The notes under the pieces were generated by a model. The model was not told where the DNA came from, did no database searches, and saw nothing but the letters and a program-made list of their open reading frames with translations. DNA of 64,000 bases from Comamonadaceae bacterium OS-4 (GTDB taxonomy: Bacteria; Pseudomonadota; Gammaproteobacteria; Burkholderiales; Burkholderiaceae_C): the NCBI GenBank assembly GCA_027924025.1, contig AP026971.1:1-64000 (forward strand), read 5' to 3'. Both the position numbers and the translations under genes were made by a program. Positions 22,619-59,371 of this stretch are shown here, in pieces (the first letter of the stretch is position 1; each line of letters starts with the position of its first letter).

Positions 22619-22650
22619 CTTTTCCAGGGTTCTAGCAACCCAACTCATAC
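22619..22650 (+). promoter_or_regulatory. Recurrent leader element (copy 1)
   Basis: CTTTTCCA is followed by the hairpin GGGTT-CTAGC-AACCC with a 5-nt loop, then one A and ACTCATAC (22643-22650). The start codon of the next gene is only 9 bases later, the shortest spacing of any copy. The element must therefore overlap or lie next to the ribosome footprint. Confidence 0.65.
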
Positions 22651-22659
22651 CTAAGAAAA

Positions 22660-22887
22660 ATGATCTTTCCAAATCCCAACAAGAAGGGGTCTGGCAAGCT
22701 CACAATTGCCGAACGTGAACAACTAGGTTCCGCGCTCGTAGAGCTAGGCCACGATCCCAAAAAAGAAATCGCTGCGACGGACGTCATGCAAGCAATGCTG
22801 CTCAATGCAGCAAAAGAGCACGACAAACAACATCCAGGCAGCAACCAGGTTAAAGCGGCCCGCAATTTCCGCAACAACCACCAATAA
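22660..22887 (+). CDS. Small hypothetical protein, 75 residues
   Basis: The product is Lys/Asn-rich and helical (NKKGSGKLTIAEREQLGSAL). A purine stretch (AAGAAAA) replaces a classical ribosome-binding site. A leader element precedes it and two terminator-like hairpins follow before the PRTRC genes. It may be the first gene of the PRTRC region. Family not recognised. Confidence 0.6.
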   Translation: MIFPNPNKKGSGKLTIAEREQLGSALVELGHDPKKEIAATDVMQAMLLNAAKEHDKQHPGSNQVKAARNFRNNHQ

Positions 22888-22900
22888 ACCAATCCCTAAG

Positions 22901-22935
22901 CGCCGCAGACGTCTCCTGACGTAAGCGGCGTTTTT
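22901..22935 (+). terminator. Rho-independent terminator
   Basis: CGCCGC...GCGGCG with an inner ACGTC/GACGT stem and five Ts, 14 bp after the stop of the 75-residue gene. Confidence 0.8.
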
Positions 22936-22959
22936 ACATCGGCTCACAGAGCCACCAGT

Positions 22960-22998
22960 GATCGCAAAGACCTTCCCCGAGGTCCTGCGATTTTTTTT
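22960..22998 (+). terminator. Second terminator or attenuator before PRTRC E
   Basis: ATCGCA...TGCGAT with an inner GACCT/AGGTC stem and eight Ts ends 20 bases before the PRTRC E start codon. A terminator placed here, after one already present at 22935, suggests controlled read-through into the PRTRC operon. Confidence 0.7.
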
Positions 22999-23018
22999 CG
23001 TTCTCGAAAGGACAACCC

Positions 23019-23540
23019 ATGTTAGTTAACACACTCTGCGGCCTCGCCGAAGTGGCCCAAAGCGTCCAGCTTCACATTATGCAAGTGGGCCAGGAATTCC
23101 AAGTGGTAATTCAGCCCAGCATGCAACTGGCAGAAAAGTTTCCTGCACTTGCCCAGCCCCTGATGGTGACAGCAAGTAAGGAAAAGCTGGAAGCCGAATT
23201 GATCGAAGCGTTGACATCGTTCACGCCCATGATCCAGTCGGCAAGCAGCAACTTGGCGCAGATCCAAGAAAATTTGGATGCAGCGCAAAAAGCAGCTCGC
23301 GATAAAGGCAAGAAGACCACTCCCGTCGCACCGGCCAAGCCTGGCTCGGTGCAAGGCTCCACCACCACCAATGGTGTCAAGCCGCCCGCGGCGATGGAAA
23401 AAGGTACCGAATCGGCTCCGGATCTTTTCAGCACTACACCGGTTGAACAAAGCACTACACCGGTTGAAACTGGTGTCGTGTCGACCGCCTCGTCTGATGA
23501 TGATGCGGAAGACGCTCTGCCAACTCTCCCGGGCATGTGA
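23019..23540 (+). CDS. PRTRC system protein E
   Basis: This 173-residue protein has a folded N-terminal part (about 1-90; ALAQPLMVTASKEKLEAELI, EALTSFTPM) and a long disordered tail rich in Ala, Thr, Pro and acidic residues. That layout matches PRTRC E, a member of the ParB-Related ThiF-Related Cassette found on plasmids. Its biochemical role is unknown. AAAGGAC lies 8 bases before the ATG. It opens the cassette and is followed at 8 bp by protein C. Confidence 0.75.
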   Translation: MLVNTLCGLAEVAQSVQLHIMQVGQEFQVVIQPSMQLAEKFPALAQPLMVTASKEKLEAELIEALTSFTPMIQSASSNLAQIQENLDAAQKAARDKGKKTTPVAPAKPGSVQGSTTTNGVKPPAAMEKGTESAPDLFSTTPVEQSTTPVETGVVSTASSDDDAEDALPTLPGM

Positions 23541-23548
23541 GGTGTGAA

Positions 23549-23746
23549 ATGGCCATTCAAACAGTCAAACGCACCATCAAGTTCGAAAACCGCACTCTGC
23601 AGGACATCAGGGGCATGACCCCTGAACAACTGCGCGTGCACTACACCAACATCTACCCCGAGTTGGCGACGGCCACCACTGAAGAAGATGTGACTCCCCA
23701 AGGAATCACCATCACCTTCACTACTGGCTACAAATCCAAGGGCTGA
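23549..23746 (+). CDS. PRTRC system protein C, ubiquitin-like
   Basis: The 65-residue product starts at ATG 23549, after GAGGTG. It has the compact PRTRC C pattern: a beta-hairpin start (TVKRTIKFENRTLQDI), then MTPEQLRVHYTNIYPELATA, and a final strand ending GYKSKG. PRTRC C corresponds to the Prok_Ub (prokaryotic ubiquitin) family, with a beta-grasp fold and a C-terminal Gly that an E1-like enzyme could activate. Here the last residue is that Gly, so no processing would be needed. The E1-, E2- and JAMM-like partners are all downstream. Confidence 0.8.
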   Translation: MAIQTVKRTIKFENRTLQDIRGMTPEQLRVHYTNIYPELATATTEEDVTPQGITITFTTGYKSKG

Positions 23747-23766
23747 GTTTCAAATCCCAACCCTTA

Positions 23767-23796
23767 AAGGCAAGCCGATGGCTTGCCTTTTCTTTT
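23767..23796 (+). terminator. Hairpin with U tract between PRTRC C and F
   Basis: AAAGGCAAGC-CGAT-GGCTTGCCTTT followed by TTCTTTTT. It is immediately followed by GGAG and a GTG start, so terminator and ribosome-binding site are almost fused. Confidence 0.7.
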
Positions 23797-23807
23797 TGGA
23801 GCCCACC

Positions 23808-24017
23808 GTGGACAAAACCGTATTCCAACAACTCTGCCGTGAGCAACTGCAAAAGCCTCCCGGCAAGCGCGCCCCTTTGGGGGTCGCAGGCATTAAACCC
23901 AGCAAGGACCATCAAAAATGTCTCTCGCAACTCCCGAAACTTCTAACCGTGCACCACAACGATCGCAGCCCACGCCTAAGCATGCCAAGCAGCATGTTGC
24001 CGCCGATGCCGTACTGA
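23808..24017 (+). CDS. Possible small overlapping gene, 69 residues
   Basis: A GTG start 7 bases after TTTTTGGAGC opens a 69-residue frame (VFQQLCREQLQKPPGKRAPL) that overlaps the first 100 bases of PRTRC F in another frame. The ribosome-binding site is the same TTTTTGGAG sequence used by the genes at 43703 and 59447. The second half of the frame looks less like coding sequence because PRTRC F shares it. A coupling peptide for F is possible. Confidence 0.35.
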   Translation: MDKTVFQQLCREQLQKPPGKRAPLGVAGIKPSKDHQKCLSQLPKLLTVHHNDRSPRLSMPSSMLPPMPY

Positions 24018-25261
24018 CACCGCCGCCTGGTTGTGCCATTGATCTGCCGGTGCTGGATCAACACATACCGACGACCATCACTCTGAGCTTTGAGACCAAA
24101 GGACTCGGGTTTTTGACCGATTCCATGCTCAACCTTGCTTTGCTTGGCAGCGAAATGCCACGCTTCAAGCTGCAGCAGGACAAGACATTCGTCCAAAACG
24201 TCATCCTCGCAGCAGATTACCGACTACATCAGGCCATTTCCCCTCTCAAGAACAGTATCAAGCTGCATTGGTGGGGCAGCGCCTTATCAGCAGCACAAGG
24301 TAGCAACCGGATTGAAATTGGCGAAGAGAACATCGTCGTCAATTCACAAACGGAAAAGCACCCTGGCGCTGACGTAGTTGTCGAATTCGACCTCAAAGAT
24401 GACGGAGAGGTGCACTACGCCACCACTCTGCTCAACAGTTCCGAACGCTTAGCTGAATGCGAAAGCATTTGCCCGGGCTTCACTCATCTGCTTTACACCG
24501 TACTCGAACGTGTGAACGCCGCCATCTGGCCAATATTCACGCCTCGAACCCTATGGAACGAGATGCGTTGTTACCACGGTTGGGATTACATAAAAAAAAT
24601 GTGTGATGCCGATGTGGCTTTCGACGAACTCAGTGAGAACTTCGAGCCGGATGAACTGGCTGAAAAGTACGGACTCAACGACTTTGACGATATGGACCCT
24701 GCAAACGCGGTCGCAATCTATGAAGAAGAGGTTGGAGGTATTCTGCCTAGCAGTTTCATTGCCAACTTCGGCCGCGCAGCTGTCGGGGAATGGGAGCTAC
24801 ACCCGGACTCTGAACAAGAGTCCATTCCAAACCCTGTTGTCAGCGTCAAAGCCGATATCTGCGCCGTTATGGCCAGCATGGAAGCTCGCTTGACCTGGTG
24901 CCCCATAGCGCCAATTGCACTGCAACACTTGGAAGTCATGCACCGTATTTCCAGTCTCATCGCCAGCGGCGCGAGATTGGCAAAAGGTGCCAACGATTTT
25001 CAACAACCCAGCACCTCCGCGATTCACGTCCTCCGGTTCAACCATGGACGTGAGTCAACAGCATTTCATCGTGCTCTGGACGACCTCGGCAGGGGGGCCA
25101 TGGAAAACGGCGACGCCACCGAATCAACCGGCTGGTTTCGTTCAGATATGTCTGACCTCGATAAGGCGACTCAAGCCATTTCAAAACTGGAGCAGGGCGT
25201 GTTGGTACTTCAAACCACATGCACGCTTCTTCTTGACCTTTTTTACGACCCCCAATCATGA
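23918..25261 (+). CDS. PRTRC system protein F
   Basis: This 447-residue protein lies in the position and context of PRTRC F. AAGGACC precedes the ATG by 8 bases. It has a disordered first 40 residues and a large alpha/beta body. A central HGWDYIKKMCDADVAFDELS segment follows, then a C-terminal helical region. I see no catalytic motif. Its 3' end overlaps the start of protein B by four bases (ATGA). The assignment rests on gene order plus general similarity and is less certain than for A, C and ThiF. Confidence 0.65.
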   Translation: MSLATPETSNRAPQRSQPTPKHAKQHVAADAVLTPPPGCAIDLPVLDQHIPTTITLSFETKGLGFLTDSMLNLALLGSEMPRFKLQQDKTFVQNVILAADYRLHQAISPLKNSIKLHWWGSALSAAQGSNRIEIGEENIVVNSQTEKHPGADVVVEFDLKDDGEVHYATTLLNSSERLAECESICPGFTHLLYTVLERVNAAIWPIFTPRTLWNEMRCYHGWDYIKKMCDADVAFDELSENFEPDELAEKYGLNDFDDMDPANAVAIYEEEVGGILPSSFIANFGRAAVGEWELHPDSEQESIPNPVVSVKADICAVMASMEARLTWCPIAPIALQHLEVMHRISSLIASGARLAKGANDFQQPSTSAIHVLRFNHGRESTAFHRALDDLGRGAMENGDATESTGWFRSDMSDLDKATQAISKLEQGVLVLQTTCTLLLDLFYDPQS

Positions 25262-27550: not shown

Positions 27551-27581
27551 TCTTTCGTACAGCGCTCAGCTGCACTCATAC
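27551..27581 (+). promoter_or_regulatory. Recurrent leader element (copy 2)
   Basis: CTTTCGTA, hairpin CAGC-GCTCA-GCTG with a 5-nt loop, then C and ACTCATAC. Two further hairpins follow before the start codon at 27664: CGCGG...CCGCG near 27588, and ACCCAC-CAGGG...CCCTG-TGGGT near 27610-27640. Confidence 0.65.
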
Positions 27582-27663: not shown

Positions 27664-28035
27664 ATGAACGACACCCTTACCCAATTCCCTTTTCCGCTAC
27701 GCCTTGTCCAGACCGTTCATGGCCCGCGCCTTGGATGGTTCCAGGATGGCAAGTTAACCAGTCTTGGTATTGATGCCAAAAGCATTGAACAACACAAGCT
27801 GACACTCACCGACGCCCAGATCGAAGCCATCAGCGAGATGAACTACACGATCGGGGACGCCGCAGCCACTGCGCACAGCGCAGCCAGCCGCGTCATCGCC
27901 AAGACTCTCGGCAATGACAGCACTTTCTCCCTCAACTCGAACCCACTCACGATGGATCTTTTCCGGGAATCCATCATTGAAGGAATCGTGAACTCCATCA
28001 ACCATCAAACGGTGACAAAGGCCACGCCGGCCTAA
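27664..28035 (+). CDS. Hypothetical protein, 123 residues
   Basis: The start at ATG 27664 follows a structured leader rather than a strong ribosome-binding site. The protein is mostly helical, with a compact alpha/beta N-terminus (PFPLRLVQTVHGPRLGWFQD) and helices containing TAHSAASRVIAKTL. It lies between the PRTRC operon and the DndC-like gene. No family is recognised. Confidence 0.6.
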   Translation: MNDTLTQFPFPLRLVQTVHGPRLGWFQDGKLTSLGIDAKSIEQHKLTLTDAQIEAISEMNYTIGDAAATAHSAASRVIAKTLGNDSTFSLNSNPLTMDLFRESIIEGIVNSINHQTVTKATPA

Positions 28036-30842: not shown

Positions 30843-30878
30843 ACTTTCACGTTGCGGCTCTGCTGCAATCACTCATAC
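30843..30878 (+). promoter_or_regulatory. Recurrent leader element (copy 3)
   Basis: ACTTTCAC, hairpin TTGC...GCAA (with an internal mismatch, small loop), TC, then ACTCATAC. A possible -10 (TAAAAT) lies at 30831. Two more hairpins follow before the next gene, one of them GTGTTCCC...GGGAGCAC. Confidence 0.6.
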
Positions 30879-31139: not shown

Positions 31140-31250
31140 CCATTTCGGGCTACATCCCCCCCCAAACACGCACATCCTCCAGTTGGCTGCCAACTGTGCG
31201 CATTGGGTTTTCTTCAATAAATGGGGCTTCGGCCCAGAGATGGAGTTTTT

Positions 31251-31667
31251 ATGGGCCAGTCCCGTCTGGACTCGTTATTCGAGTCGCTTACCAACATAGG
31301 AATCGGCTATGCCGTGGCATTGCTCGCTCAGTTGGCAATTTACCCTGCATATGGAATGGACCTTCCATTCGTACTCAATATGCAGATCGGCGCATGGTTC
31401 ACTCTGGTGAGCCTGGTGCGCAGTTACGCGATTCGTCGCTGGTTCAATGCACGCTTTCTGTTTCAAACCCGCATGGGTTCGCTTGCAGAAGCCGCATTCA
31501 ATGTAGCCATTGGCTTCATTGTTGCGCTGGCGGCGCAGATGGCCATCTTTCCCGCTCATGGAATCGATGTGCCACTCAACACACATTTGCAAATCGGCTT
31601 CTGGTTCACCCTTGTGAGCCTGGCGCGCAGTTACACCATCCGTCGCTGGTTCAACGCACGGACCTAA
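31251..31667 (+). CDS. Membrane protein with internal duplication
   Basis: The 138-residue product starts at ATG 31251. It consists of two homologous halves of about 65 residues, each with two hydrophobic segments and ending in IRRWFNAR: first SLVRSYAIRRWFNAR, then SLARSYTIRRWFNAR. The pattern (GY.VALLAQLAIYP...G) is typical of short plasmid/phage membrane proteins normally present as a single unit. The duplication is visible at DNA level too (31432-31454 against 31639-31661). Function unknown. Confidence 0.7.
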   Translation: MGQSRLDSLFESLTNIGIGYAVALLAQLAIYPAYGMDLPFVLNMQIGAWFTLVSLVRSYAIRRWFNARFLFQTRMGSLAEAAFNVAIGFIVALAAQMAIFPAHGIDVPLNTHLQIGFWFTLVSLARSYTIRRWFNART

Positions 31668-32178: not shown

Positions 32179-32350
32179 ACCGGAAAAAGGTATGAACTAA
32201 ACACTAACCGCATAACATTGATTGACGCAACAGGTGGAGACAAAGCGAGCACGTCAATGAATGAAATTCGGTTTTTGTGACCCCTGTTAGCACGCGGTAG
32301 TAGGCAGAGATTAAGTGAGCAAATGTGCTTGGCGCACGAACAAGGAAAAA

Positions 32351-35128
32351 ATGAACGCGGTAGAAATCGAATCAGCGGTATCGGATCTGGCCAGTGGCCC
32401 TTTCAATGCGAAGGAATTTGCCTTCGATTTTTTAATGGCCTTCGGGAACAAGGATGTCGCCATTAAGCGTTTGCGTACTGGTAGCAACAACAGTTCCGAC
32501 GTTCCTGGTGGAGTTCTCCAGCGAAACAACATCCATATCGCCGTTTGCGACGTCGGAAATGTAAGTGAAACCTTGGCAGCACTGTTGGCAAGCCCCGCGA
32601 CCGCCAAGGCGAGGGCCAAATTTGTTTTGGCCACCGATGGCAATGACTTCGAAGCAAAAGACCTCATCAGCGATGAGTTGCTGGTATGCCCTTACCAAGA
32701 CTTCCCGAACTACTTCGGGTTCTTTCTACCGCTGGCAGGAATTTCAACCGTCCGAGAGATCAAAGACAACCCAATTGACGTCAGGGCGACAGGGCGGCTC
32801 AATAAACTCTATGTAGAGCTTCTACGTGAAAACCCAGACTGGGCCACCGAAAAGCGGCGTCCTGACATGAATCACTTCATGGCTCGGCTCATTTTTTGTC
32901 TTTTTGCCGAAGACACAGGAATTTTCAACCGCACCAGCTTGTTCACCCAAACAATCGAGCAGATGAGCGAGCGCGATGGCTCCAACTCCCACGAAGTATT
33001 GGAGACCATTTTCCGCGCAATGAACATAAAGTTCAACGAACGCGAAAACGCTAATCCGCGTCTGCCAATCTGGGCAGCGGGCTTTCCATACGTCAATGGT
33101 GGTCTGTTCTCAGGTGGGACAGAGGTTCCACGCTTCACTCGTATTGCCAGAACCTACCTCAGCCACGCCGCCAACCTTAACTGGAAAGAGATCAACCCCG
33201 ACATCTTCGGCTCCATGATCCAGGCAGTGGCCGACGACGAAGAGCGTGGCGAGCTGGGCATGCACTACACAAGCGTGCCAAACATCTTGAAGGTACTCAA
33301 CCCCTTGTTTCTGGACGAAATACGAGCGCAACTGGAGAACGCCGGGGACAACAAGACCAAGCTGCTCAACTTACGCAAACGCATCGCACGCATTCGCGTG
33401 TTTGATCCTGCTTGCGGGTCTGGAAACTTCCTGGTGATTGCATACAAGCAGCTGCGCGAAATCGAGGCAGAAATCAACCGTCGCAGGGACGAAATCCATT
33501 TGCGAAGCGAAATCCCACTGACCAACTTCCGAGGCATTGAGCTGCGAGACTTTCCGGCAGAGGTTGCGCGGCTGGCTCTGATCATTGCCGAATTCCAATG
33601 CGATGTGCTTTACCGCGGCCAGCAAGACGCTCTGGCTGAGTTCCTACCGCTGAACACCGAAAACTGGATTGTGAGTGGCAATTCACTGCGTCTGGACTGG
33701 CTCAGCATTTGCCCGCCCACCGGGACTGGGGTAAAGGTGCGCGGCGATGATCTATTCAATACGCCCTTGGACCAGACCGAGATTGACTTCGCCAATGAAG
33801 GCGGCGAGACCTACATCTGTGGCAACCCTCCCTATCTGGGCAGTACTTGGCAGTCGGTTGAGCAAAAGGATGACCTGCGGGCCATTTTCGACCATCGCAC
33901 CACAACCTGGAAGTCTCTGGACTATGTAGCTGGCTGGTTCATGAAGGCTGCGGACTACGGAACCCATACAGATGCGACTGCCGCATTTGTATCTACTAAC
34001 TCAATTTGCCAAGGTCAACAAGTCCCATTTTTTTGGCCACTTGTCCTTGAGCTTGGTCACCAGATCGTGTTCGCACACACGAGCTTCAAGTGGTCAAACC
34101 TAGCAAGCAACAAGGCGGGTGTCACCGTTGTAATAGTTGGCTTTACAAAAAAGGCTGGCGGAACTCGGACACTCTATTACCAGACTGACGAAGGCGTCTC
34201 AGTTGCAAAAAGCGTTTCCAACATTAATGCCTATCTTGTAGCAGGACCTAATGTCATTGTTGAAAAGGCAATGCGCCCCCTCACACAAGTCAGCGTCATG
34301 GACTTCGGAAACAAGGCCGATGATGGTGGGCACCTGACATTACTTCCGCATCAGCTTGAAGACATGCACCTTGAGCGCAGTGCCAACAACAAGTTCATTA
34401 AGCAGTTTTATGGCTCAAAGGAATTCATTAACGGTGAAACAAGATACTGCCTTTGGATCAAAGACGAAGACTTAAACGCTGCTTTGGCAGTGCCAGCGAT
34501 TGCAAATCAAGTTGAGCTCGTACGCAAAGCCAGACTTAGCAGCAAAGATGCTTATGCACGCAGCTTAGCGACCAGAGCTCACCAGTTCAAAACACCTCGC
34601 CTAGCCACGAGTAGCGTCATTGTTACGCCACGTGTTAGTTCTGAGGACAGGCCATACCTGCCGGTTGGCTTGCTAAGCAATTCAAGCGTAATTGGTGACC
34701 GAAACTTCGCTCTATACGATGCCCCCCTATGGAACATGGCCATCATTGCGTCACGCCTTCACTGGATCTGGATCGGAGCTGTGTGCGTTCGGCTTGAAAT
34801 GCGCTTCTCATATTCCAACACCCTGGGTTGGAACACTTTTCCGATGCCGACGCTGACAGAGCAGAACAAAATGGACCTTACAGAGTGTGCTGAGGCCATC
34901 TTGTTGGCCCGTGAAGCACACTTTCCCGCCACCATTGCTGACCTCTACAACCCGGAGACCATGCCCGAAAATCTCCGCATGGCGCATGAGCGCAACGACG
35001 AGGTGATCGAACGCATCTACATTGGCCGACGCTTCAAAAACGACACCGAGCGTCTGGAAAAGCTCTTCGACATGTACACAAAAATGACGGCCACAGCTGT
35101 CAGCGCTAAAAAGGGGAAGAAGAAATGA
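32351..35128 (+). CDS. MmeI-like class I DNA methyltransferase
   Basis: The 925-residue protein (ATG 32351, AAGGA 5 bases upstream) has the organisation of MmeI-type DNA methyltransferases: N-terminal domain (about 1-190), helical spacer, Rossmann catalytic domain with SAM motif DPACGSGNF near residue 353, and motif IV NPPYLGS near residue 490. A target-recognition and C-terminal region follows (about 620-900). NPPY marks N6-adenine (or N4-cytosine) amino methylation. No obvious nuclease domain is visible at the N-terminus. The next two genes, each overlapping, supply helicase and nuclease. I infer a restriction or phage-defence operon. Confidence 0.88.
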   Translation: MNAVEIESAVSDLASGPFNAKEFAFDFLMAFGNKDVAIKRLRTGSNNSSDVPGGVLQRNNIHIAVCDVGNVSETLAALLASPATAKARAKFVLATDGNDFEAKDLISDELLVCPYQDFPNYFGFFLPLAGISTVREIKDNPIDVRATGRLNKLYVELLRENPDWATEKRRPDMNHFMARLIFCLFAEDTGIFNRTSLFTQTIEQMSERDGSNSHEVLETIFRAMNIKFNERENANPRLPIWAAGFPYVNGGLFSGGTEVPRFTRIARTYLSHAANLNWKEINPDIFGSMIQAVADDEERGELGMHYTSVPNILKVLNPLFLDEIRAQLENAGDNKTKLLNLRKRIARIRVFDPACGSGNFLVIAYKQLREIEAEINRRRDEIHLRSEIPLTNFRGIELRDFPAEVARLALIIAEFQCDVLYRGQQDALAEFLPLNTENWIVSGNSLRLDWLSICPPTGTGVKVRGDDLFNTPLDQTEIDFANEGGETYICGNPPYLGSTWQSVEQKDDLRAIFDHRTTTWKSLDYVAGWFMKAADYGTHTDATAAFVSTNSICQGQQVPFFWPLVLELGHQIVFAHTSFKWSNLASNKAGVTVVIVGFTKKAGGTRTLYYQTDEGVSVAKSVSNINAYLVAGPNVIVEKAMRPLTQVSVMDFGNKADDGGHLTLLPHQLEDMHLERSANNKFIKQFYGSKEFINGETRYCLWIKDEDLNAALAVPAIANQVELVRKARLSSKDAYARSLATRAHQFKTPRLATSSVIVTPRVSSEDRPYLPVGLLSNSSVIGDRNFALYDAPLWNMAIIASRLHWIWIGAVCVRLEMRFSYSNTLGWNTFPMPTLTEQNKMDLTECAEAILLAREAHFPATIADLYNPETMPENLRMAHERNDEVIERIYIGRRFKNDTERLEKLFDMYTKMTATAVSAKKGKKK

Positions 35129-37260
35129 GCCAACACACAGGAAACCCGACCAACACTTACACGGTGCCGTCGGTCTCTATCAAAACTGCCCGCACTGGCG
35201 CGAACAACAAGGCCAATGAACTGGGCATGCGCACCATGCAGGAGCGGGCCTACGCCAAGCGCGGCGAACAGTACCTGCTGATCAAGTCCCCACCCGCATC
35301 GGGCAAATCACGCGCCCTGATGTTCATTGCCCTGGACAAACTCCACAACCAGGGCCTCAAGCAGGCCGTGGTTGTAGTGCCCGAGCGCTCCATTGGCAGC
35401 AGCTTTGCCGATGAAGCGCTGACCCAACACGGTTTTTACTGGGATTGGAAGGTCGCGCCCCAATGGAATCTGTGCAATGCCCCAGGCGTCGATGAAACCC
35501 GCATCGCCAAATCCAAGGTGGAATCGGTGCGCAAGTTCCTTGAATCGCAGGACAAGGTGCTGGTCTGCACCCATGCCACCTTCCGTTTTGCAGTAGAAGA
35601 GTTGGGTATCCAAGCCTTTGATGACCGTCTGATCGCCGTCGACGAGTTCCACCATGTCTCCAGCAATCCGGACAACATCCTGGGCAGCCAGCTCACGGTC
35701 CTGATCGCTCGCGACAAGACCCACCTGGTGGCCATGACCGGTTCCTATTTCCGTGGAGACAGTGAAGCCGTGCTGGCGCCGACCGACGAGTCACGCTTCG
35801 AGACGGTCACTTACACCTATTACGAACAGCTCAATGGCTATTCTTGGCTCAAATCGCTCGACCTGGGCTACTTCTTCTATACCGGCCCCTACGTCGAAGC
35901 CATCCATAAGGTGCTCGATCCCAGCCTCAAGACCATCGTTCACATCCCCAATGTGAATGCCCGCGAGTCCCTGAAGGACAAGGAGCGCGAGGTCAACGAA
36001 ATCATGGAAGGCTTGGGCAAGTGGGAAGGCGTGGATGAGAAAACCGGCTTTCATCTGGTCAAAACACCGGACGGGCACGTTCTGCGAATTGCTGATCTGG
36101 TTGACGATTCCAATCCGGCCCAGCGAACCAAGGTGCTCACCGCGCTCAAAGACCCCGTCCACAAGAATGACCGCGACCACGTGGACATCATCATTGCTCT
36201 GGGCATGGCCAAAGAAGGGTTCGACTGGATTTGGTGCGAGCACGCTTTGACGGTGGGCTACCGCTCCAGCCTTACCGAAATCGTCCAGATCATCGGCCGC
36301 GCCACCCGTGATGCCAAGGGAAAGACGCGCGCGCGCTTCACCAACCTCATTGCCGAGCCCGCCGCTGATCAGTCACTGGTTACCGAAGCCGTCAACGACA
36401 TGCTCAAGGCCATCTCTGCAAGCCTGCTCATGGAACAGGTACTGGCACCGCGCTACGAATTCACGCCTAAGGATGCGGGCCCCAAGGAAGGATTCGATTA
36501 CGGCCCCGAGGGGTATCAGCCCGGCCAATCGAATGTCGGCGTCAATGAATCCACCGGCCAATACCACGTTGAAATCAACGGCCTGACCACACCAAAAAGC
36601 AAAGAAGCCACCCGTATCTGCAAGGAAGACCTCAACGAAGTAGTGACGACCTTCTTGCAAGACAAATCCGCTCTTGAACAAGGGCTGTTTGACAAGGAAA
36701 ACGTCCTGCCGCAGGAACTTACCCAGCTGCGCATGGGCAAGATCGTACGCGAACGCTATCCCGACCTAAGTGAGACGGACCAGGAAGCGATTCGCCAGCA
36801 CGCCATTGCGGCCATGAACGTCACCCAACAGGCCAAGCTGGAATTGTCCAAGATGGCTGAAGCTGGCCAGCAGGATGTGCTGGGGGAGGGCGAAGAGCTC
36901 AAGGGTTCCACCGCCTTGCTCGACGGCGTGCGCAAGTTCGTCAATGTGAGGGAGCTCGACATCGAGCTGATCGACGCCATCAACCCGTTCGAAGCCGCCT
37001 ATTCCGTGCTGTCAAAATCGATGGATGAGAAGCTGCTGCGCCAAGTGCAAGCAGCCATCGAAGCCAAGAAGGCCAACATTCCCGAGGAAGAGGCGAAGGA
37101 ACTGGCTAAGCGAGCCCTGGTGTTCCTGAAGGAGCGCGGTCGACGACCTGACATTAAATCCAACGACGCATGGGAAAAGCGTTTGGCAGAGGGAGTAGCC
37201 GCATTGGCGCGCTACGTGGCACAAGCCAAAGCAGAACAGGAGAAGAAAACCAATGGCTGA
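35125..37260 (+). CDS. Superfamily 2 DEAD/DEAH-type helicase
   Basis: The 711-residue protein overlaps the methyltransferase by four bases. Motifs are in order: Walker A SPPASGKS (55-62), the DEAH-type box DEFH (173-176), motif III (MTGSYF), and motif VI (QIIGRATRDAKGKTRARF). The C-terminal 250 residues are helical and probably mediate contacts. Paired with a methyltransferase and a nuclease, it resembles the translocating or remodelling subunit of a restriction complex. Confidence 0.85.
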   Translation: MSQHTGNPTNTYTVPSVSIKTARTGANNKANELGMRTMQERAYAKRGEQYLLIKSPPASGKSRALMFIALDKLHNQGLKQAVVVVPERSIGSSFADEALTQHGFYWDWKVAPQWNLCNAPGVDETRIAKSKVESVRKFLESQDKVLVCTHATFRFAVEELGIQAFDDRLIAVDEFHHVSSNPDNILGSQLTVLIARDKTHLVAMTGSYFRGDSEAVLAPTDESRFETVTYTYYEQLNGYSWLKSLDLGYFFYTGPYVEAIHKVLDPSLKTIVHIPNVNARESLKDKEREVNEIMEGLGKWEGVDEKTGFHLVKTPDGHVLRIADLVDDSNPAQRTKVLTALKDPVHKNDRDHVDIIIALGMAKEGFDWIWCEHALTVGYRSSLTEIVQIIGRATRDAKGKTRARFTNLIAEPAADQSLVTEAVNDMLKAISASLLMEQVLAPRYEFTPKDAGPKEGFDYGPEGYQPGQSNVGVNESTGQYHVEINGLTTPKSKEATRICKEDLNEVVTTFLQDKSALEQGLFDKENVLPQELTQLRMGKIVRERYPDLSETDQEAIRQHAIAAMNVTQQAKLELSKMAEAGQQDVLGEGEELKGSTALLDGVRKFVNVRELDIELIDAINPFEAAYSVLSKSMDEKLLRQVQAAIEAKKANIPEEEAKELAKRALVFLKERGRRPDIKSNDAWEKRLAEGVAALARYVAQAKAEQEKKTNG

Positions 37261-38446
37261 ACTGAGCAACGAAGAGCTGCTTGACGCACTCGGCGTTGAG
37301 GTGGAGCCCATTAAGACCAATGGCCGCACACCGGTCGAAGAACGCATCATCGCCGGATTCGAAGACATCCAACGCTTCGTAGACCATCGCCAGAGCCAGC
37401 CTGTCAATCAAGCGGGGCGAGACATCTTTGAGCGCATATACGCGGTGCGTCTGGAGCAACTGCGCAAAAACCCGCAGGCACGCGCCATTCTGCATGGACT
37501 GGACACCGGTGGACTGTTAGGTGAGGTATCCGTGGACAAGGTTGCGATCGACAATCTGAGCGAAGAGGATCTGCTGGCAGAGTTGGGGGTGAGCGTGCAA
37601 ACCACGCCCAGCGAAGACAACGGGGACATCACCGTACTCCGACACGTTCGCACCAGCACTGAGAGGCGTGATGCCGAGCAGATTGCGGATCGTATGCCTT
37701 GCAAGGACTTTGCCCAATTCAAGCCCCTGTTCGAGCAGGCCCAGCGTGAACTAGACAATCAGACTCGCAAAGCACCGCGGTTCGGGCGCGATGCCACCAT
37801 TCAAGAGCTTGACTTCTTCATTTTGGAGGGGCAGTTTGCCTACGTGGCCGAGATGGGCGAAAGCATTACCATGCCCAGTGGCCACCACGATGCCCGACTG
37901 CGGGTCATCTATAGCAACGGCACCGAGAGCAACCTGCTATTGCGCTCCCTACAAAAAGCGCTGTGGCGTGATGACACCGGTCGTCGCCTTACCGCCCCCA
38001 GCGCGGGGCCTCTGTTCTCAGATGAGCCCGAGCATGATGACATCGAAACTGGAACAATTTATGTCCTGCGAAGCAACTCCAATCATCCTTACGTAGCTCA
38101 GCACCGTGAACTGATTCACAAAATCGGGGTGACTGGAGGGAAGGTGGAAAATCGTATATCCGGGGCGGAGAAAGACGCGACCTACTTACTTGCTGGGGTA
38201 GATGTTGTTGCCACCTACAAGCTGCACAACATAAACCGCGTGCGCATGGAAAACCTTTTTCATAAGATTTTCAGCAGCGCACAGATCGACATAAGCATTG
38301 ATGATCGCTTCGGCAACCCGGTGAAACCGCGTGAATGGTTCCTTGTGCCTCTTCATGCCATCAACGAAGCTGTTGAGCGAATTTTAGATGGCTCAATCAC
38401 TCAATTCGCCTACGACACTCAAAAGGCAAGCATGGTTCGACTCTAG
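37253..38446 (+). CDS. GIY-YIG (T5orf172-type) nuclease
   Basis: The 397-residue protein overlaps the helicase by eight bases. The N-terminal part (about 1-230) is a family-specific region with acidic repeats (EELLDALGVEVEP, EEDLLAELGVSVQ). The C-terminal part (about 266-385) is a GIY-YIG nuclease of the T5orf172 group: GTIYVLRS, HKIGVTGGKVENRI, then a conserved Glu in VRMENLFHKIF. GIY-YIG enzymes cut DNA with a single metal. It probably provides the cutting activity of the three-gene system. Confidence 0.85.
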   Translation: MAELSNEELLDALGVEVEPIKTNGRTPVEERIIAGFEDIQRFVDHRQSQPVNQAGRDIFERIYAVRLEQLRKNPQARAILHGLDTGGLLGEVSVDKVAIDNLSEEDLLAELGVSVQTTPSEDNGDITVLRHVRTSTERRDAEQIADRMPCKDFAQFKPLFEQAQRELDNQTRKAPRFGRDATIQELDFFILEGQFAYVAEMGESITMPSGHHDARLRVIYSNGTESNLLLRSLQKALWRDDTGRRLTAPSAGPLFSDEPEHDDIETGTIYVLRSNSNHPYVAQHRELIHKIGVTGGKVENRISGAEKDATYLLAGVDVVATYKLHNINRVRMENLFHKIFSSAQIDISIDDRFGNPVKPREWFLVPLHAINEAVERILDGSITQFAYDTQKASMVRL

Positions 38447-42948: not shown

Positions 42949-42995
42949 ACCTTACGGCTTCATGCCGATGCACCCTACGCGGGTGTTACTCATAC
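42949..42995 (+). promoter_or_regulatory. Recurrent leader element (copy 4)
   Basis: CCTTACGG, an extra small hairpin, then CACCC-TACGC-GGGTG with a 5-nt loop, TT and ACTCATAC (42988-42995). About 130 bases of structured leader separate it from the next start codon. Confidence 0.65.
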
Positions 42996-43125: not shown

Positions 43126-43632
43126 ATGCCTATGAAAATCTTTGAATTCGGTACCGGCCCGCAAGCAACTGCTTTGGGCTATTACCTGGACAAACTGGTC
43201 CACAAAACAGACGCCGACTTGCAAGCCGAGCACGCCACAGAAAATCTGATTTTCGTTCGCGGCCCGACAGTCCAAGGCCAAACCGGTGTTTTTGAGTTCG
43301 CACTATTCAAACCGGTTCAAAAATACATGGTGCGTTCCTTACTGGCCTCGCCTGACTGGATCCAAAAGGCCCAAGAAGCCTGCTTGAAGGTCCACTCTGA
43401 ACGGCCTTTGTTCAGCGAGCGTTATCACATCGTGCGCGACGCTTCCGATAACCGTGTCACTCTGACTCAAGCCAACGGACGCGACATACCCTTGGATGCT
43501 TTTGGACTGGATGACTCCCGGCGTGCCATCCTCTATCAGCTGCACCGTGCTGGACTCCTGAGCCCCGATCTGCCGAAGGGTCGTTGCCTCGCCCAGCCCA
43601 TGGACGCCACAAATCAAGCCGTAGTGGCGTAA
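43126..43632 (+). CDS. Hypothetical protein, 168 residues
   Basis: The start is ATG 43126 or ATG 43132; ACGAG lies just upstream. The protein is alpha/beta, with no membrane segments, and contains ENLIFVRGPTVQGQTGVFEF. It lies behind a long structured leader. The next two genes follow closely, suggesting a small operon. Family not recognised. Confidence 0.6.
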   Translation: MPMKIFEFGTGPQATALGYYLDKLVHKTDADLQAEHATENLIFVRGPTVQGQTGVFEFALFKPVQKYMVRSLLASPDWIQKAQEACLKVHSERPLFSERYHIVRDASDNRVTLTQANGRDIPLDAFGLDDSRRAILYQLHRAGLLSPDLPKGRCLAQPMDATNQAVVA

Positions 43633-49250: not shown

Positions 49251-49988
49251 CCCATAAAAGGTCACCTAACTCCCATCCCATAAAAGGTAACTTATTGCGA
49301 CATTGATGACGGGGCGACTGCATCAATGGGATAAATGGTTGTAGAAACCGTTACGGGCATCGACGCACCGCTTACGTGGGCGGGAAAAGAAGAGCAATCG
49401 ATACAATTCGAACTGTGCCCCATAAACGGTCACCTTTGATATTTCCCATAAACAGTCACCTTAGGATGCGTTCCACACTACCACCATCCCATAAAAGGTA
49501 ACTTAACAAGCCAAACGCTCAGAAATAGGGCACATCCGTAGTGCAATGCTCCCATAAACAGTCACCTATGGACTGTTGAGAGTGGCTAATCCCCCATAGC
49601 CTTCCACCTTCATAGGTGGAAAAAAAGTGGCAGGGGGCTTCTTCATGACCTAATCCATCCCATAAACGTACACCTTAATAACCTAGATGACCTTCGGACG
49701 ACCCCGTGGAGACCACAAAGACACCATAAGTGCCCCCAAGTGGCAGCGAAGAGGCCCAGAGTGAACTTAAAGCGGCCACTACTAGACCAACGGCGAACCA
49801 TAAACGGTCACCTATAGAAAAATTGACAAGCGCATATCCCATAAATGGTCACCTAAACTGAATCCCATAGATGGCGACCTGTATCCCATATCCACATACC
49901 TTACGTCCCATAGACAGTCACCCATCTCCCATATCCACATACTTTAGCTCCCATAAAGGTACACCTAGCGTCCCATAACTTTCCACCC
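49251..49988 (+). repeat. Iteron array, probable origin of replication
   Basis: Sixteen copies of a 17-bp motif (consensus CCCATAAANGGTNACCT) start at 49251, 49277, 49419, 49445, 49488, 49551, 49593, 49659, 49797, 49838, 49864, 49885, 49907, 49928, 49950 and 49972. The last six are spaced 21-22 bp, two helical turns, and alternate in sequence type. Copies near the left are closest to consensus. The array lies upstream of a Rep_3-type initiator gene. It is the expected oriV. Confidence 0.9.
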
Positions 49989-50176: not shown

Positions 50177-51490
50177 ATGGCAACACAAGGTAAGCGCCAC
50201 AGCAAGGATCTAGGACAGGTATCGCTCTTCCAAGCATCAGAAGTACCAGAGCCGTTTCGCAAAGCTGTCCAAGTAGTACACAGCAAGCCACATGTCCAAA
50301 TGTCACTGCTGGAAAGAAAGATCAGCAATGCGTGGATAAAAAACGCAATGGACCAAAAGCCAGACGAAGAAGGCTGGTGGTACATCACCCTATCCCACAT
50401 GGGTGACCAAATAGGTTTCGACTCGAACAATATGGGCTACCTCAAAGAGGTATCCCGCCGGGTAATGACAATCCGCTTTGAATGGGATGTGCTCGCTAAA
50501 GAGGGGAAGGGTATTGGATGGAAAGCCTCTGTGCTTTTCCCAGAAGTGGAAATAAGGGGTGACCATCTCCGATATCAAATCAGTCGGCAGCTTCGTGCGC
50601 AAATCCTGCAACCCACGATGTACGCGATGCTGGACATGTCAGTAATCCGGAAGTTCAAACGGACTGCAGCTTTAGGACTTTACGAGCATTGCATCCGCTT
50701 TGAAAACATAGGGCAGACTGCACGACTTCACTGGACGCAACTTAGAGACATCCTCCTGGGCGAAGACACTTCAAGCACCTCGTATCACGACTTCAAATAT
50801 TTCAACGCGAAAGTGATCAAACCGGCTGTAGCAGAGGTGAATGCGGTAAGTGAAATTGTGCTGGAGACCCACACAGCTCGAATGGGGCGCACTATCACCG
50901 ACATATGGTTCACCATTGCAAAGATCATAGAAACTGCGCCAGAGGACCGTATTGAATCAGCAGAACAGCTTCAAGCAGTTGGAGAGATGGTCAAAATTGG
51001 CATGCCTCAATCAGAAGCGAAAAAGCTCATCCGCGAACACGGAGTCCCAAATGTAAATGCTGCGCTGGATTACACCCAACGACGTGCAGCCGACAAAAAG
51101 CAAACGCCGCTTGATAACAAAACTGCTTATTTCAGATCAGCGCTTGTTCAAAGATGGGGCGTGATTGATGACGAGCAAACCCCAAAGCAAAAAGTACGGA
51201 CGGAACCCAAACCCAAAGGCAAATCGCTCCTTGACGCATTGAAAGAAAAGAGGACGAAAGACGCAGAGGGATACTTCAAAGAACTTGATGCACCGGATCA
51301 AGCGGAGTTCATCACCAAGTACAACCAGGGTCAAGAAATTGACTCGCTGCGAATCAAGAAAAACAAGGTCTTAAAGGCAGCGGAGGCGTCATTTTTTAGA
51401 TGGCTAGCCGTAGCTGTTTGGGGCGAGCCTACGCAAGCAGAAACACTGGAATTTGCTACCGAAGTGTTCGCATCCAAAGGACTGTTGTAA
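50177..51490 (+). CDS. Rep_3-family replication initiator
   Basis: The 437-residue protein has the two winged-helix domains of Rep_3 initiators (about 30-250): SLLERKISNAWIKNAMDQKP, then ISRQLRAQILQPTMYAMLDM and RTAALGLYEHCIRF. The C-terminal region (about 260-437) is Lys/Gln-rich and helical. It is immediately downstream of the iteron array, and the start lacks a Shine-Dalgarno. Initiators of this group bind iterons as monomers and repress their own gene as dimers. The window has no other Rep gene. Confidence 0.88.
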   Translation: MATQGKRHSKDLGQVSLFQASEVPEPFRKAVQVVHSKPHVQMSLLERKISNAWIKNAMDQKPDEEGWWYITLSHMGDQIGFDSNNMGYLKEVSRRVMTIRFEWDVLAKEGKGIGWKASVLFPEVEIRGDHLRYQISRQLRAQILQPTMYAMLDMSVIRKFKRTAALGLYEHCIRFENIGQTARLHWTQLRDILLGEDTSSTSYHDFKYFNAKVIKPAVAEVNAVSEIVLETHTARMGRTITDIWFTIAKIIETAPEDRIESAEQLQAVGEMVKIGMPQSEAKKLIREHGVPNVNAALDYTQRRAADKKQTPLDNKTAYFRSALVQRWGVIDDEQTPKQKVRTEPKPKGKSLLDALKEKRTKDAEGYFKELDAPDQAEFITKYNQGQEIDSLRIKKNKVLKAAEASFFRWLAVAVWGEPTQAETLEFATEVFASKGLL

Positions 51491-51601: not shown

Positions 51602-51642
51602 ACTTTCAGGCTTTACGCCACGCGCATTCGCGCAACTAATAC
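51602..51642 (+). promoter_or_regulatory. Recurrent leader element (copy 7, divergent)
   Basis: ACTTTCAGG, a hairpin CGCG-CATT-CGCG, CA, then ACTAATAC, one base different from the consensus ACTCATAC. The leader goes on for about 100 bases with hairpins such as CGCGGG...CCCGCC before the ATG at 51750. Confidence 0.5.
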
Positions 51643-51749: not shown

Positions 51750-51953
51750 ATGATCTCAAGCACAGCAGTTATGGACATCCGGTCTAACAAGGCCGCCATC
51801 AACTCTTACAGCCCCGAATTCCGGGGTGACATCAAGGCCGCTCAACGCTTTCTGTCCGCTCTCCGCATGGAGTGCGAGCAAAAACGCATGGCATGGCAGG
51901 TCTACCGCGCTGTGAAGCGCGAGGCCAAAAAAGCTGGACTTATTCCCCAATAA
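51750..51953 (+). CDS. Small hypothetical protein, 67 residues
   Basis: ATG 51750 has AGAAGGAG 6 bases upstream. The product is basic and helical (AAQRFLSALRMECEQKRMAW and AVKREAKKAG). It is the first gene after rep, transcribed from its own promoter and leader. No family is recognised. Confidence 0.65.
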   Translation: MISSTAVMDIRSNKAAINSYSPEFRGDIKAAQRFLSALRMECEQKRMAWQVYRAVKREAKKAGLIPQ

Positions 51954-52582: not shown

Positions 52583-52608
52583 AAGGCCGCGTAAGCGGCC
52601 TTTTTTTT
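52583..52608 (+). terminator. Rho-independent terminator
   Basis: AAGGCCGC-GTAA-GCGGCCTT with eight Ts; the next ribosome-binding site starts 12 bases later. Confidence 0.88.
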
Positions 52609-55632: not shown

Positions 55633-55662
55633 ACTTTCAGACCCCTTGCGGGTTACTCATAC
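55633..55662 (+). promoter_or_regulatory. Recurrent leader element (copy 5)
   Basis: ACTTTCAG, hairpin ACCC-CTTGC-GGGT with a 5-nt loop, T, then ACTCATAC. A further hairpin (CGAGCGGA-ATCC-TCCGCTCG) follows. TTGACG at 55598 may be the -35; the -10 is poor. Confidence 0.65.
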
Positions 55663-55720: not shown

Positions 55721-56575
55721 ATGGAGGCCGTCAAACCCCAACAAGAAGACCATCTTTTCGTGGCTACCCACGAAGAACTCTCTTCGCAGGCGTATCACGA
55801 GGAGCGTGGCCACGTCAGCTCGTCACAGCTGATTCACGTGCTACGCACACCTGCGCACTTTCTCTACCACTCGCTGGAAGGCAGTTCGGAAGAGTCGGAT
55901 CTGATGCGCATGGGAACCGCTGTGCATTGCATGGTTCTGGAACCTAAAGAGTTCCAGAATCGCTACGTATTTGCTCCGCGTAACTACGACAAGCGCTACA
56001 AGGTCGATCAAGCTGAAGCTAAGGCAATTGCTGAAAGTTATCCAGGCAAGATCATCCTTGAGCAGCGTGACCAAATCACGCTGAAAAAAATTGTCGCTGG
56101 ATTGCAAAACCACGCTATGGCACGCCAACTTCTGGCGGCCGAAGGTCAACCGGAACTCTCCATCTTCTGGAGAGACGACTTGACTGGGCTTGATTTGAAG
56201 GTCCGAATCGACCGATTTGTCAAATTGGGATCAACGGGCGTCATGCTTGAGGTCAAGTCCACTGACAACGCTTCACCAGAAGCCTTCGGACGAAAAATCG
56301 TTGACATGGATTACGACCTTCGGGCCGTGATGTATGCAGACGGACTGAAACGAGCATATGGCTTCACACCATCGATCGTCTGGCTTGTGATTGAGCGAGA
56401 AACCGGATTCGTTGCGCTTTACCAACCGACGCCAAAAATGCTCACCAGAGCGTGGCGTCGTTACGAAGAAGCACGGATCGCATTGGCCCATGCCAAAAAA
56501 TTCAATTCCTGGCCCGCGTATCAAACAGGTGAGTCAATCGAACCGATTGATCTGCCACGCTGGATCAGGAACTAA
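55721..56575 (+). CDS. RecE-like PD-(D/E)xK exonuclease
   Basis: The 284-residue protein belongs to the RecE (exonuclease VIII)/DUF3799 group. GTAVH at 66-69 is the motif that precedes the active site, Asp164 sits in KVRIDRF, and Glu177 and Lys179 in MLEVKS give the D...ExK triad. RecE-type enzymes degrade one strand of double-stranded DNA from an end, leaving single strands for a RecT-type annealing protein. That partner is the next gene. A structured leader, not a strong Shine-Dalgarno, lies upstream. Confidence 0.85.
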   Translation: MEAVKPQQEDHLFVATHEELSSQAYHEERGHVSSSQLIHVLRTPAHFLYHSLEGSSEESDLMRMGTAVHCMVLEPKEFQNRYVFAPRNYDKRYKVDQAEAKAIAESYPGKIILEQRDQITLKKIVAGLQNHAMARQLLAAEGQPELSIFWRDDLTGLDLKVRIDRFVKLGSTGVMLEVKSTDNASPEAFGRKIVDMDYDLRAVMYADGLKRAYGFTPSIVWLVIERETGFVALYQPTPKMLTRAWRRYEEARIALAHAKKFNSWPAYQTGESIEPIDLPRWIRN

Positions 56576-58039: not shown

Positions 58040-58065
58040 GCATTTCACTAAAAACTCAACCTTTT

Positions 58066-58099
58066 AGGCCGGCGCTCCCTTGTGGAGTGCCGGCCTTTT
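58066..58099 (+). terminator. Rho-independent terminator
   Basis: AGGCCGGC-GCTCC...GGAGT-GCCGGCCTTTTC; its right arm ends about 16 bases before the clamp start codon. Confidence 0.8.
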
Positions 58100-58115
58100 C
58101 TTTAGGAACATCGAA

Positions 58116-59255
58116 ATGACAATCCTTTCCGAAAACATGCAATCAGCTCTCGCGCTTGCCAGGGGAAATCGTGGTCGCGCTAAAGGTGATGATGCGCGGT
58201 CCCATATCCTGCTGCGCCCATCCGATACGGGGCTGCTTAGTGTGCTGTGTGCTGATGGAACGACGCAAACAGAGGTCGTTTTCCAAGGCAGCATTGACCA
58301 GCCGGTAGCAGTTGCCCCACAGTTGTTTGAACTCGTCCAGACACTGAAGGCCGGGGTAAACATCAAACTCACCCCGACCGATTCGGCGACCTGCAAAGTG
58401 CAGACCGGTAAATCCCGCTTCACATTGCCAACGCGCCCAGCGGCTGATTTTCCGCTGCTGGAGTCCGAGGGAACAGAAACGGCTAAGTTCTCCATCAAAG
58501 CACATTCGCTGGCCAAAGCCTTGGAGTCGGCCTCGCGCGGGATGGGTAAGCCGGTACCGGCTAAACCCTTCACTGGTGGTGTTCTTCTCAAGTGCACAGA
58601 CAAGGGCGTCTACCTGGTGGGCACCAGCGGATTCACACTGGTAAACGTAGGTGTCGGTGCGCAAGTCCAGCCAGGTACAAAAACACAATCAGGGGTTATA
58701 CCCGAGATGGGCATTAGCCAGATTCAACGCCTTGCGAGTACGGCTGCGGCCGATCAGCGCATTGAGTTCGAACTTGGTGATCGTCAAGTGACAGCGAAGC
58801 TTGGTGGCGCCACTGTGCGCTCGCGCTTAATCAGCTGCAAGTTTCCAGACTACGAGCAAGTAACCGCTGTACAGGACCCCTTTAGCTTGGAGCTTTCCCG
58901 CTCCAGTCTGCTGGAAGTACTCAAGCGCGTTGGTCTGTTTGTGCAAGAGTCCAGCCCCTTTGTTTCAATCAAAGTGGAGAAAGCAGAAACCGGCGAATGG
59001 AAGCTCGTATGCAGCGTGAAAACGCCGCAGGGCGAGTGCGTGGAAAGTATTGATTTGGTCCCCGGAAAAATCAAACTCCGCTCCGATGGATTGCCCTCTG
59101 CAGAAGCGCACCTCAACATTACCTACCTCGCGTCGATCCTCGATGCGATGCCCGATGACAGCGTAATTGCTGACTTCAGTAAGAACACATTGCGGGTGCG
59201 TGGTGCAAGCCAAACCCTGAATGTTGTCGGTATCGCGGCTTATTACCGCGCTTAA
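58116..59255 (+). CDS. DNA polymerase III beta sliding clamp homologue
   Basis: ATG 58116 gives 379 residues, close to the usual 366-380 of DnaN. The three-domain clamp pattern is visible. The strongest marker is GKSRFTLPTRPAADFPLLE (about 120-140), matching the DnaN GRSRF...LPAxDFP motif. Further markers are ISCKFPDYEQV near residue 250 and NITYLASILDAMPDDSVIAD near 335. Clamps tether polymerases and other factors to DNA. A plasmid-encoded clamp could redirect the host replisome or act with the RecE/T pair. Confidence 0.88.
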   Translation: MTILSENMQSALALARGNRGRAKGDDARSHILLRPSDTGLLSVLCADGTTQTEVVFQGSIDQPVAVAPQLFELVQTLKAGVNIKLTPTDSATCKVQTGKSRFTLPTRPAADFPLLESEGTETAKFSIKAHSLAKALESASRGMGKPVPAKPFTGGVLLKCTDKGVYLVGTSGFTLVNVGVGAQVQPGTKTQSGVIPEMGISQIQRLASTAAADQRIEFELGDRQVTAKLGGATVRSRLISCKFPDYEQVTAVQDPFSLELSRSSLLEVLKRVGLFVQESSPFVSIKVEKAETGEWKLVCSVKTPQGECVESIDLVPGKIKLRSDGLPSAEAHLNITYLASILDAMPDDSVIADFSKNTLRVRGASQTLNVVGIAAYYRA

Positions 59256-59260
59256 CAGAA

Positions 59261-59311
59261 ACACCTCCAAATACTGGGCTTCGGCCTGTATTTGGGGGTG
59301 TTTTTTTTTCA
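59261..59311 (+). terminator. Rho-independent terminator
   Basis: ACACCTCCAAATAC...GTATTTGGGGGTGT with nine Ts after the clamp gene. Confidence 0.88.
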
Positions 59312-59333
59312 TCTATATGGCAAAATTAAAGGG

Positions 59334-59371
59334 CTTTTCGAGTTGCGATCACGTCGCAGCTTCACTCATAT
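59334..59371 (+). promoter_or_regulatory. Recurrent leader element (copy 6)
   Basis: CTTTTCGAG, hairpin TGCGA-TCACG-TCGCA with a 5-nt loop, GCTTC, then ACTCATAT. Two long hairpins follow (CACGGGGAAC...GTTCCCCGTG and GGGAAACTCATGGTGTTCCC), then TTTTTGGAG and the ATG at 59447. Confidence 0.65.

Follow-up and report, generated by a model that had tools for sequence, protein, structure and literature searches.

A plasmid of Comamonadaceae bacterium OS-4 carries a recurrent 5' leader in which a CTTTC motif, one or two short hairpins and the octamer ACTCATAC (ACUCAUAC in RNA) follow one another directly behind a promoter. The DNA analysed here (the window) spans positions 1 to 64,000 of contig C2 (305,179 bp), one of two contigs in the complete 4.07 Mb genome; C2 is a plasmid by content, and the other replicon is the 3.76-Mb chromosome (C1). 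Twenty leaders were identified on the plasmid, nine of them inside the window; 16 of the 20 have the exact octamer and four a one-mismatch form. We propose that they represent a shared 5'-terminal cis-regulatory RNA on about 20 mRNAs of one plasmid, which would be read in trans as a regulon, a proposal drawn from sequence whose prospects of being right or wrong we regard as evenly balanced.

The original prediction, made from the window, had described such a leader before at least nine unrelated genes. All ten places that it quoted hold the described pattern, those at 51635 (ACTAATAC) and 59364 (ACTCATAT) as one-mismatch forms. The downstream genes share no family: a Pfam family could be assigned at E <=0.01 to the first open reading frame (ORF) behind only three of the 20 leaders (DUF7220; DUF3799/PD-(D/E)XK; N6-methylase with helicase domains), and no family is common to them. 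The tenth place, which had been listed as having no gene, does contain the octamer (22356) but is counted here as doubtful, since both a gene and a -10 box at the expected distance are missing. Besides this copy, our set of 20 excludes the octamers at 105899, 190969 and 284911 and a degenerate copy at 134350.

Octamer enrichment, promoter coupling and predicted structure

The exact octamer occurs eight times in the window versus 0.78 expected, and none of 100 shuffled sequences reached eight. There are 20 exact copies on the 305-kb plasmid versus 27 on the twelvefold larger chromosome, a density about ninefold higher on the plasmid (Poisson p 3e-13). Between 22 and 152 kb of C2 it is the second-ranked over-represented 8-mer, behind T8, with 16 occurrences on one strand and none on the opposite one. 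To compare flanks, sites were picked by the octamer alone, so that all 20 exact plasmid octamers were taken, 22356 included. An upstream hairpin above threshold was found at 16/20 plasmid versus 5/27 chromosomal octamers (18% of random positions; Fisher p 3e-5), CTTT(T)(T)C ahead of the octamer at 13/20 versus 1/27 (6% of random positions; p 6e-6), and both together at 12/20 versus 1/27 (p 2e-5). The hairpin and CTTTC therefore belong to the plasmid copies and not to the octamer itself. Three exact plasmid octamers (105899, 190969 and 284911) have neither CTTTC nor a hairpin above threshold, and look like chance occurrences.

The leaders are tightly coupled to promoters. CTTT begins exactly 7 nucleotides (nt) past a -10 box with at least four TATAAT letters in 16 of the 20 leaders, whereas each of the other spacers from 3 to 15 nt is seen in three at most; the CTTT starts were placed by hand, and an alternative placement gives the 7-nt spacer in 14 of 20. 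Four leaders, named by their octamers, deviate: for 22643 TACAAT lies 28 nt upstream, for 42988 the register is uncertain, for 55655 the box reads CAGACT (3/6 letters) and for 147810 the spacing is 8 nt. Counted from the C of CTTT, a TTG lies at -36 (T in 15/20, T in 14/20, G in 14/20) and the -10 box at -13 to -8, with a spacer of 17, an arrangement that fits ordinary double-stranded -35/-10 promoters with 17-bp spacing. Searching both plasmid strands for a promoter followed after 7 nt by CTTT, without regard to the octamer, returned 15 sites, namely 12 known leaders, the degenerate copy at 134350 and two sites without an octamer. Similarly, the backbone has 318 promoter-like sites on its + strand; 12 of them are followed by CTTT at spacer 7 (1.3 expected), and no more than two at any one of the spacers 3-6 and 8-14. 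The promoters noted in the original prediction are thus sigma70-like and directly upstream, but mostly not 10-35 nt away as it had stated for several copies. Transcription usually begins 6-8 nt past the -10 box. Given the fixed 7-nt spacing, CUUUC is therefore predicted to be the very beginning of the transcript. Seven leaders lie directly behind strong terminators, with 63-100 nt from the T-run to the octamer.

The segments between CTTT and the octamer are predicted to fold well beyond chance. Their summed energy over the 20 leaders was -187 versus -99 kcal/mol for dinucleotide shuffles (standard deviation 8.7, z -10.2, 0/1000), individual segments reached p < 0.05 in 13 of 20, and the mean hairpin score was 13.2 versus 8.3 in shuffles. 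This agrees with the earlier observation that the stems vary in sequence while their pairing is kept. For eight window copies, whole leaders of 91-148 nt gave fold z values of -1.5 to -7.3 (the folded 8884 leader begins 7 nt inside the leader). Two details of the original description hold in part. The loop of 5 nt is common (about six of nine leaders in the window and 11 of 20 on the plasmid) but not general, and the single small hairpin gives way to two before the octamer in eight of 20 leaders, including 42988 and 51635 in the window, the others having one there and more after the octamer. In the two-hairpin leaders the first hairpin is mostly GGC-5 nt-GCC; its outer pair is C-G, U-A or A-U in most of them but does not form in some. 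Across the predicted ensemble, the unpaired fraction averages 85% for the octamer (more than 80% in 15 of 20 leaders) and 83% for CTTTC, versus 42% for the part between them. The gap from CTTTC to the octamer varies from 20 to 39 nt without helical phase. Together with the free sequence of the stems, this favours reading of the element as RNA rather than as DNA.

Some leaders show further features. Five two-hairpin leaders (C2:120140, 122324, 124328, 127402 and 150976) are alike over some 150 nt, sharing the blocks ACTYATACAGCC and, near the start codon, a late CCTTGGGCTTC-like block. An alternative fold is possible in the 59334 leader (window 59334-59460): GGGGAACACC, one arm of its large hairpin, may also pair with a downstream GGTGTTCCCC, which is followed by a T-rich stretch.

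Leaders, downstream genes and the plasmid

Table 1. Leaders and related copies on C2; window positions are identical to C2 positions.
Feature	Position (strand)	Octamer position	Promoter	5' motif	Hairpin(s)	Octamer	Following ORF
Leader	8884..8920 (-)	8884	-10 TAAGAT 7 nt upstream	CTTTTC	GCGC-GTTCT-GCGC inside GGC..GCC	ACTCATAC	75 aa, 8589-8816 (-)
Leader	10019..10051 (-)	10019	-10 TAGAAT 7 nt upstream	CTTTTC	CTC-c-GCT-TAAC-AGC-a-GAG	ACTCATAC	178 aa, 9405-9941 (-)
Doubtful copy	22330..22363 (+)	22356					
Leader	22619..22650 (+)	22643	TTGGCA-18-TACAAT, 28 nt upstream of CTTT	CTTTTC	GGGTT-CTAGC-AACCC	ACTCATAC	75 aa, 22660-22887, 9 nt behind leader, head of PRTRC genes
Leader	27552..27581 (+)	27574	TTGCGG-17-TAAAAT	CTTTC	CAGC-GCTCA-GCTG	ACTCATAC	123 aa, 27664-28035
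Leader	30844..30878 (+)	30871		CTTTC	GTTGCGGC-TCT-GCTGCAAT	ACTCATAC	DUF7220, 31221-31667 (start uncertain)
Leader	42949..42995 (+)	42988	TTGACC-16-TACAAT	ACCTTAC (degenerate)	CGGC-TTCAT-GCCG; GCACCC-TACGC-GGGTGT	ACTCATAC	168 aa, 43126-43632
Leader	51603..51642 (+)	51635			GGC-TTTAC-GCC; GCGC-ATTC-GCGC	ACTAATAC	67 aa, 51750-51953, adjoining rep
Leader	55634..55662 (+)	55655		CTTTC	GACCC-CTTGC-GGGTT	ACTCATAC	DUF3799 PD-(D/E)XK nuclease, 55721-56575
Leader	59334..59371 (+)	59364		CTTTTC	GTTGCGA-TCACG-TCGCAGC	ACTCATAT	N6-methylase/helicase, 59447-64492
Leader	(+)	115318					
Leader	(+)	120174					
Leader	(+)	122357					
Leader	(+)	124363					
Leader	(+)	127436					
Degenerate leader	C2:134350					ACTCAACC	
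Leader	(+)	138551					
Leader	(+)	141908					
Leader	(+)	146465					
Leader	(+)	147810					
Leader	(+)	148817					
Leader	(+)	151012					

The eleven leaders beyond the window fall within C2:115-151 kb, and every leader within C2:22-152 kb is on the + strand, which also dominates C2:22-140 kb when the lengths of ORFs of at least 120 aa are summed (Table 1). The two minus-strand leaders sit in a block with a Tn3-family transposase gene at either end, the two gene copies being inverted, and were probably turned over together with this block. The gene copies themselves (window 2993-6196 and 18368-21572; 975 aa) are 99.97% identical and have identical flanks; three more copies with >99.9% identity are present elsewhere on the plasmid.

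Leader-bearing genes comprise PRTRC genes, DNA-metabolism genes and genes without an assigned function. Behind the leader at 22643, the second gene encodes PRTRC_E, and PRTRC_B, PRTRC_A and PRTRC_ThiF follow further along. Start codons were chosen from the ORFs, and are uncertain behind 30871, 115318, 127436, 146465 and 151012. No leader was found in C2:60-115 kb, the region that holds the identified transfer and pilus genes (at about C2:74-97 kb).

Besides the PRTRC cassette, C2 encodes a Rep3-type initiator (50177-51490), a ParB-like protein scoring under curated cut-offs, TraC-, TraD/G-, TrbI-, TraU- and TraE-like transfer proteins, and type IV pilus proteins. It also encodes its own Hfq (C2:108904-109173, 89 aa) in addition to the chromosomal one, with KSAIST in place of the host's KHAIST. 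The nearest relatives of its rep are from betaproteobacterial plasmids, with 37-47% identity for the best five of 430 records, and TraC shows 20-25% identity to those PLSDB matches that were listed. C2:22200-34000 had no megablast match in PLSDB, and we therefore regard the plasmid as a lineage without near relatives in that database. Upstream of the Rep3-type gene, a row of TCCCATAAA-CGGTCACCT repeats (window 49251-49977) likely represents the iterons of the replication origin. A further row of genes (window 32315-38446) encodes an MmeI-type restriction-modification protein, a DEAD/ResIII helicase-like protein and a T5orf172-domain protein.

Search for relatives and known families

In agreement with the original prediction, which had not recognised the leader as a named RNA family, Rfam 15 (radC and STAXI included) gave no match at the gathering cut-off over the window and plasmid stretches jointly holding the 20 leaders. 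With looser limits (E <=5 across the window; E <=1 for 13 of the 20 leaders, which were cut out and searched), no match touched a leader either. The radC and STAXI motifs are likewise candidate structured RNAs, and STAXI is found near DNA-handling and antirestriction genes; unlike the leader, it is described as a repeated pseudoknot (PMC2864571). Among the matches listed from openly licensed PubMed Central papers, no title for ACUCAUAC concerned bacterial gene regulation, and no title described such a plasmid leader.

Genomes were searched with two covariance models and with sequence patterns. Model R1 is overfitted to the five N-padded copies that it was derived from, and R2 keeps three base pairs and is mainly a sequence model. 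Within the genus, R1 matched three of 61 genomes, namely the own genome and two others with a lone match each; these two matches have almost the same sequence and, inspected by eye, lack the leader layout. The pattern TCTTTY-N8-38-ACTCATAC had eight matches in the own genome and no more than two in any other of 103 genus genomes. One genus genome had three octamers on one contig, located at start codons of reverse ORFs. Within the family (399 genomes), R2 recovered four copies on the own plasmid and one match in one other genome, where the octamer is the only one in its 3-kb locus. Across the order (399 genomes), the pattern was found six times in the own genome and at most three times, scattered, in others. 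With the two-hairpin pattern only, GTDB species genomes gave three matches, all lone, and viral contigs none.

Plasmids gave a similar picture. The five with the closest rep had two lone pattern matches that by eye are not leaders, and two of the five also matched a reversed control. R2 found one match (E 1.75) in twelve plasmids that have a related rep, exonuclease or helicase or, like pQBR103, a comparable make-up. When upstream regions of genes in related plasmids were read by eye, we saw other repeated hairpins and not this leader. In Sulfuricystis pSTJ2 and a Delftia plasmid, for instance, different hairpins lie before many genes, such as CAACCCC-..GCGGGG-..-CCCCGC..GGGG just upstream of the Shine-Dalgarno site, possibly a parallel case. 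The enrichment in related plasmids to which the original prediction had looked was thus not borne out, as no multi-copy relative appeared in the genus, family or order samples or in the twelve plasmids; this absence concerns multi-copy sets close in sequence. Judged from the genomes searched, the element appears so far to be known from one plasmid.

Possible readers of the leader

If the leader acts as RNA, transcription would start at or beside the C of CUUUC, and one or two short hairpins, free in sequence but with their pairing kept, would be followed by a mostly single-stranded ACUCAUAC. The hairpins may act as a spacer and draw CUUUC and ACUCAUAC close to each other; the gap between the two would shrink to a short distance once they form. 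A plasmid-specific trans-acting factor could then read both unpaired segments and control these mRNAs as a single regulon, at the level of their stability, translation or early elongation. Such a factor is the simplest reader; candidates would be the plasmid Hfq, another plasmid protein, or, as in the case of putRNA, the RNA polymerase. A more specific version, which we consider somewhat less likely than not, is that a factor exclusive to the plasmid reads a 5' RNA address (CUUUC and ACUCAUAC, with an interchangeable hairpin) and runs about 20 units as an RNA-level regulon apart from the transfer genes. A comparable setting is provided by pQBR103, a large plasmid with its own global RNA-binding regulator RsmQ and an Hfq homologue, pQBR0137 (PMC9928087). 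RsmQ sites are described there as GGA at hairpin tops, whereas GGA is absent from the loops of our leaders: it occurs in one of the 20 CTTT-octamer segments (147810), in a stem, which does not fit recognition of the CsrA/Rsm type. pQBR103 had no match to R2.

Several results weigh against a leader read in trans. We could not link the plasmid Hfq, a plasmid protein or RNA polymerase to it; nor did the plasmid yield a NusG paralogue, or a perfect octamer complement in a plausible small RNA gene. No relatives were found in the other genomes searched, and the covariation is therefore seen among paralogous copies only. The hairpin score taken alone reaches p < 0.05 singly in just five of 20 leaders, and the hairpin adjacent to the octamer of the 42949 leader is absent from its predicted fold. 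The octamer of leader 141908 is predicted to be mostly paired (31% unpaired), and the openness of the octamer in general is owed to its position and not to its letters, since shuffled letters are 84% unpaired.

Among the alternatives, a role in stability only is fairly improbable in our judgement. Hairpins near the 5' end would guard the mRNAs from 5'-end-dependent decay, with CTTTC and the octamer being remnants of a copied promoter-leader cassette. This would suit hairpins whose start is within a few nt of the predicted 5' end and the group of five leaders that are alike far beyond the octamer, and short inverted repeats behind promoters of p576 are thought to lengthen RNA half-life, as described in PMC8708921. 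However, stems and flanks have diverged in the other leaders and the octamer has not, so that its conservation is left unexplained.

We consider it unlikely that the leader RNA mediates processive antitermination or antipausing in cis, by binding its own polymerase (as HK022 putRNA does) or by loading a factor (as nut does) to pass terminators. CTCTTTC resembles boxA. The lambda nut site likewise combines a boxA-like CTCTTT, a hairpin often with a 5-nt loop and a further conserved single strand, but the sequence of its N-bound boxB is fixed, whereas the leader stems are free; CTTT is kept across the leaders and the full CTCTTT in part of the copies. No N-like protein was present among the families listed for 95 plasmid proteins, and the element-encoded NusG paralogue typical of RfaH/LoaP-type recruitment is lacking, the sole NusG of the genome being chromosomal. 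By eye, strong terminators stand directly before the start codons at 52601, 56619, 58096 and 23788, and terminators number 20.8 per 100 kb in the backbone (C2:22000-152000) versus 9.8 in 400 kb sampled from the chromosome. Terminators with a gene start behind them are nevertheless not enriched (3/27 in the backbone versus 6/39 in the chromosome sample, with 1/8 in the accessory part and 1/3 in the inverted block), in a scan that needs a Shine-Dalgarno-like string and misses the by-eye cases 56619, 23788 and 145671. As described in PMC9378689, putL also lies at the very start of its transcript, and putRNA (residues U2-U74) has two stem-loops; for it, too, no host family member has to be invoked. 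It differs in being about 70 nt long, with two stems that are both long, and in acting on RNA polymerase, whereas our leaders combine short free stems with fixed single-stranded motifs.

It is quite improbable that one small RNA, aided by the plasmid Hfq, has its seed site in ACUCAUAC. The octamer is predicted to be mostly open, the plasmid does encode an Hfq, and GTATGAGT is present at 22356 on the minus strand in an intergenic position. The remaining perfect complements outside leaders on the plasmid all fall within ORFs, and three intergenic complements are found when G-U pairs are allowed. The 27 chromosomal sites had no Rfam RNA match (gathering cut-offs for 20 of them, E <=1 for seven). 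An antisense RNA with a perfect octamer complement, a binding partner considered in the original prediction, was sought on the plasmid without a convincing candidate.

Least probable is a DNA operator, in which a repressor or activator would bind CTTTC and ACTCATAC beside the promoter with incidental hairpins: CTTT does stand at a fixed promoter distance and operator-ruled plasmid regulons are known, such as EGeRS2 of p576 (PMC8708921), but the unphased motif gap and the retention of a hairpin of free sequence argue against it. Shared plasmid-wide regulatory sequences are already known, as with EGeRS; this promoter-coupled leader family was not found in the sources searched. By their published description (PMC8708921), EGeRS1 and EGeRS2 of the pLS20 family also place one kind of sequence with inverted repeats before several operons of one plasmid, and EGeRS2 contains a promoter. 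EGeRS1 differs in having five copies of 420-750 bp on pLS20 without a detectable constitutive promoter, and the alternative form is a promoter with the operator TTATCCCnnTTATCCC; here, elements of about 35 nt lie directly behind the promoter, in 20 copies, on a plasmid of betaproteobacterial type.

If a 5'-terminal leader read in trans does govern these mRNAs, a mobile element would by this means keep its expression independent of host regulators. About 20 copies, on a single replicon, of a shared RNA module that is coupled to the transcript start, its stems free in sequence and its single-stranded motifs fixed, would make up an RNA regulon spanning the plasmid and direct attention to a new RNA-binding factor or polymerase contact.

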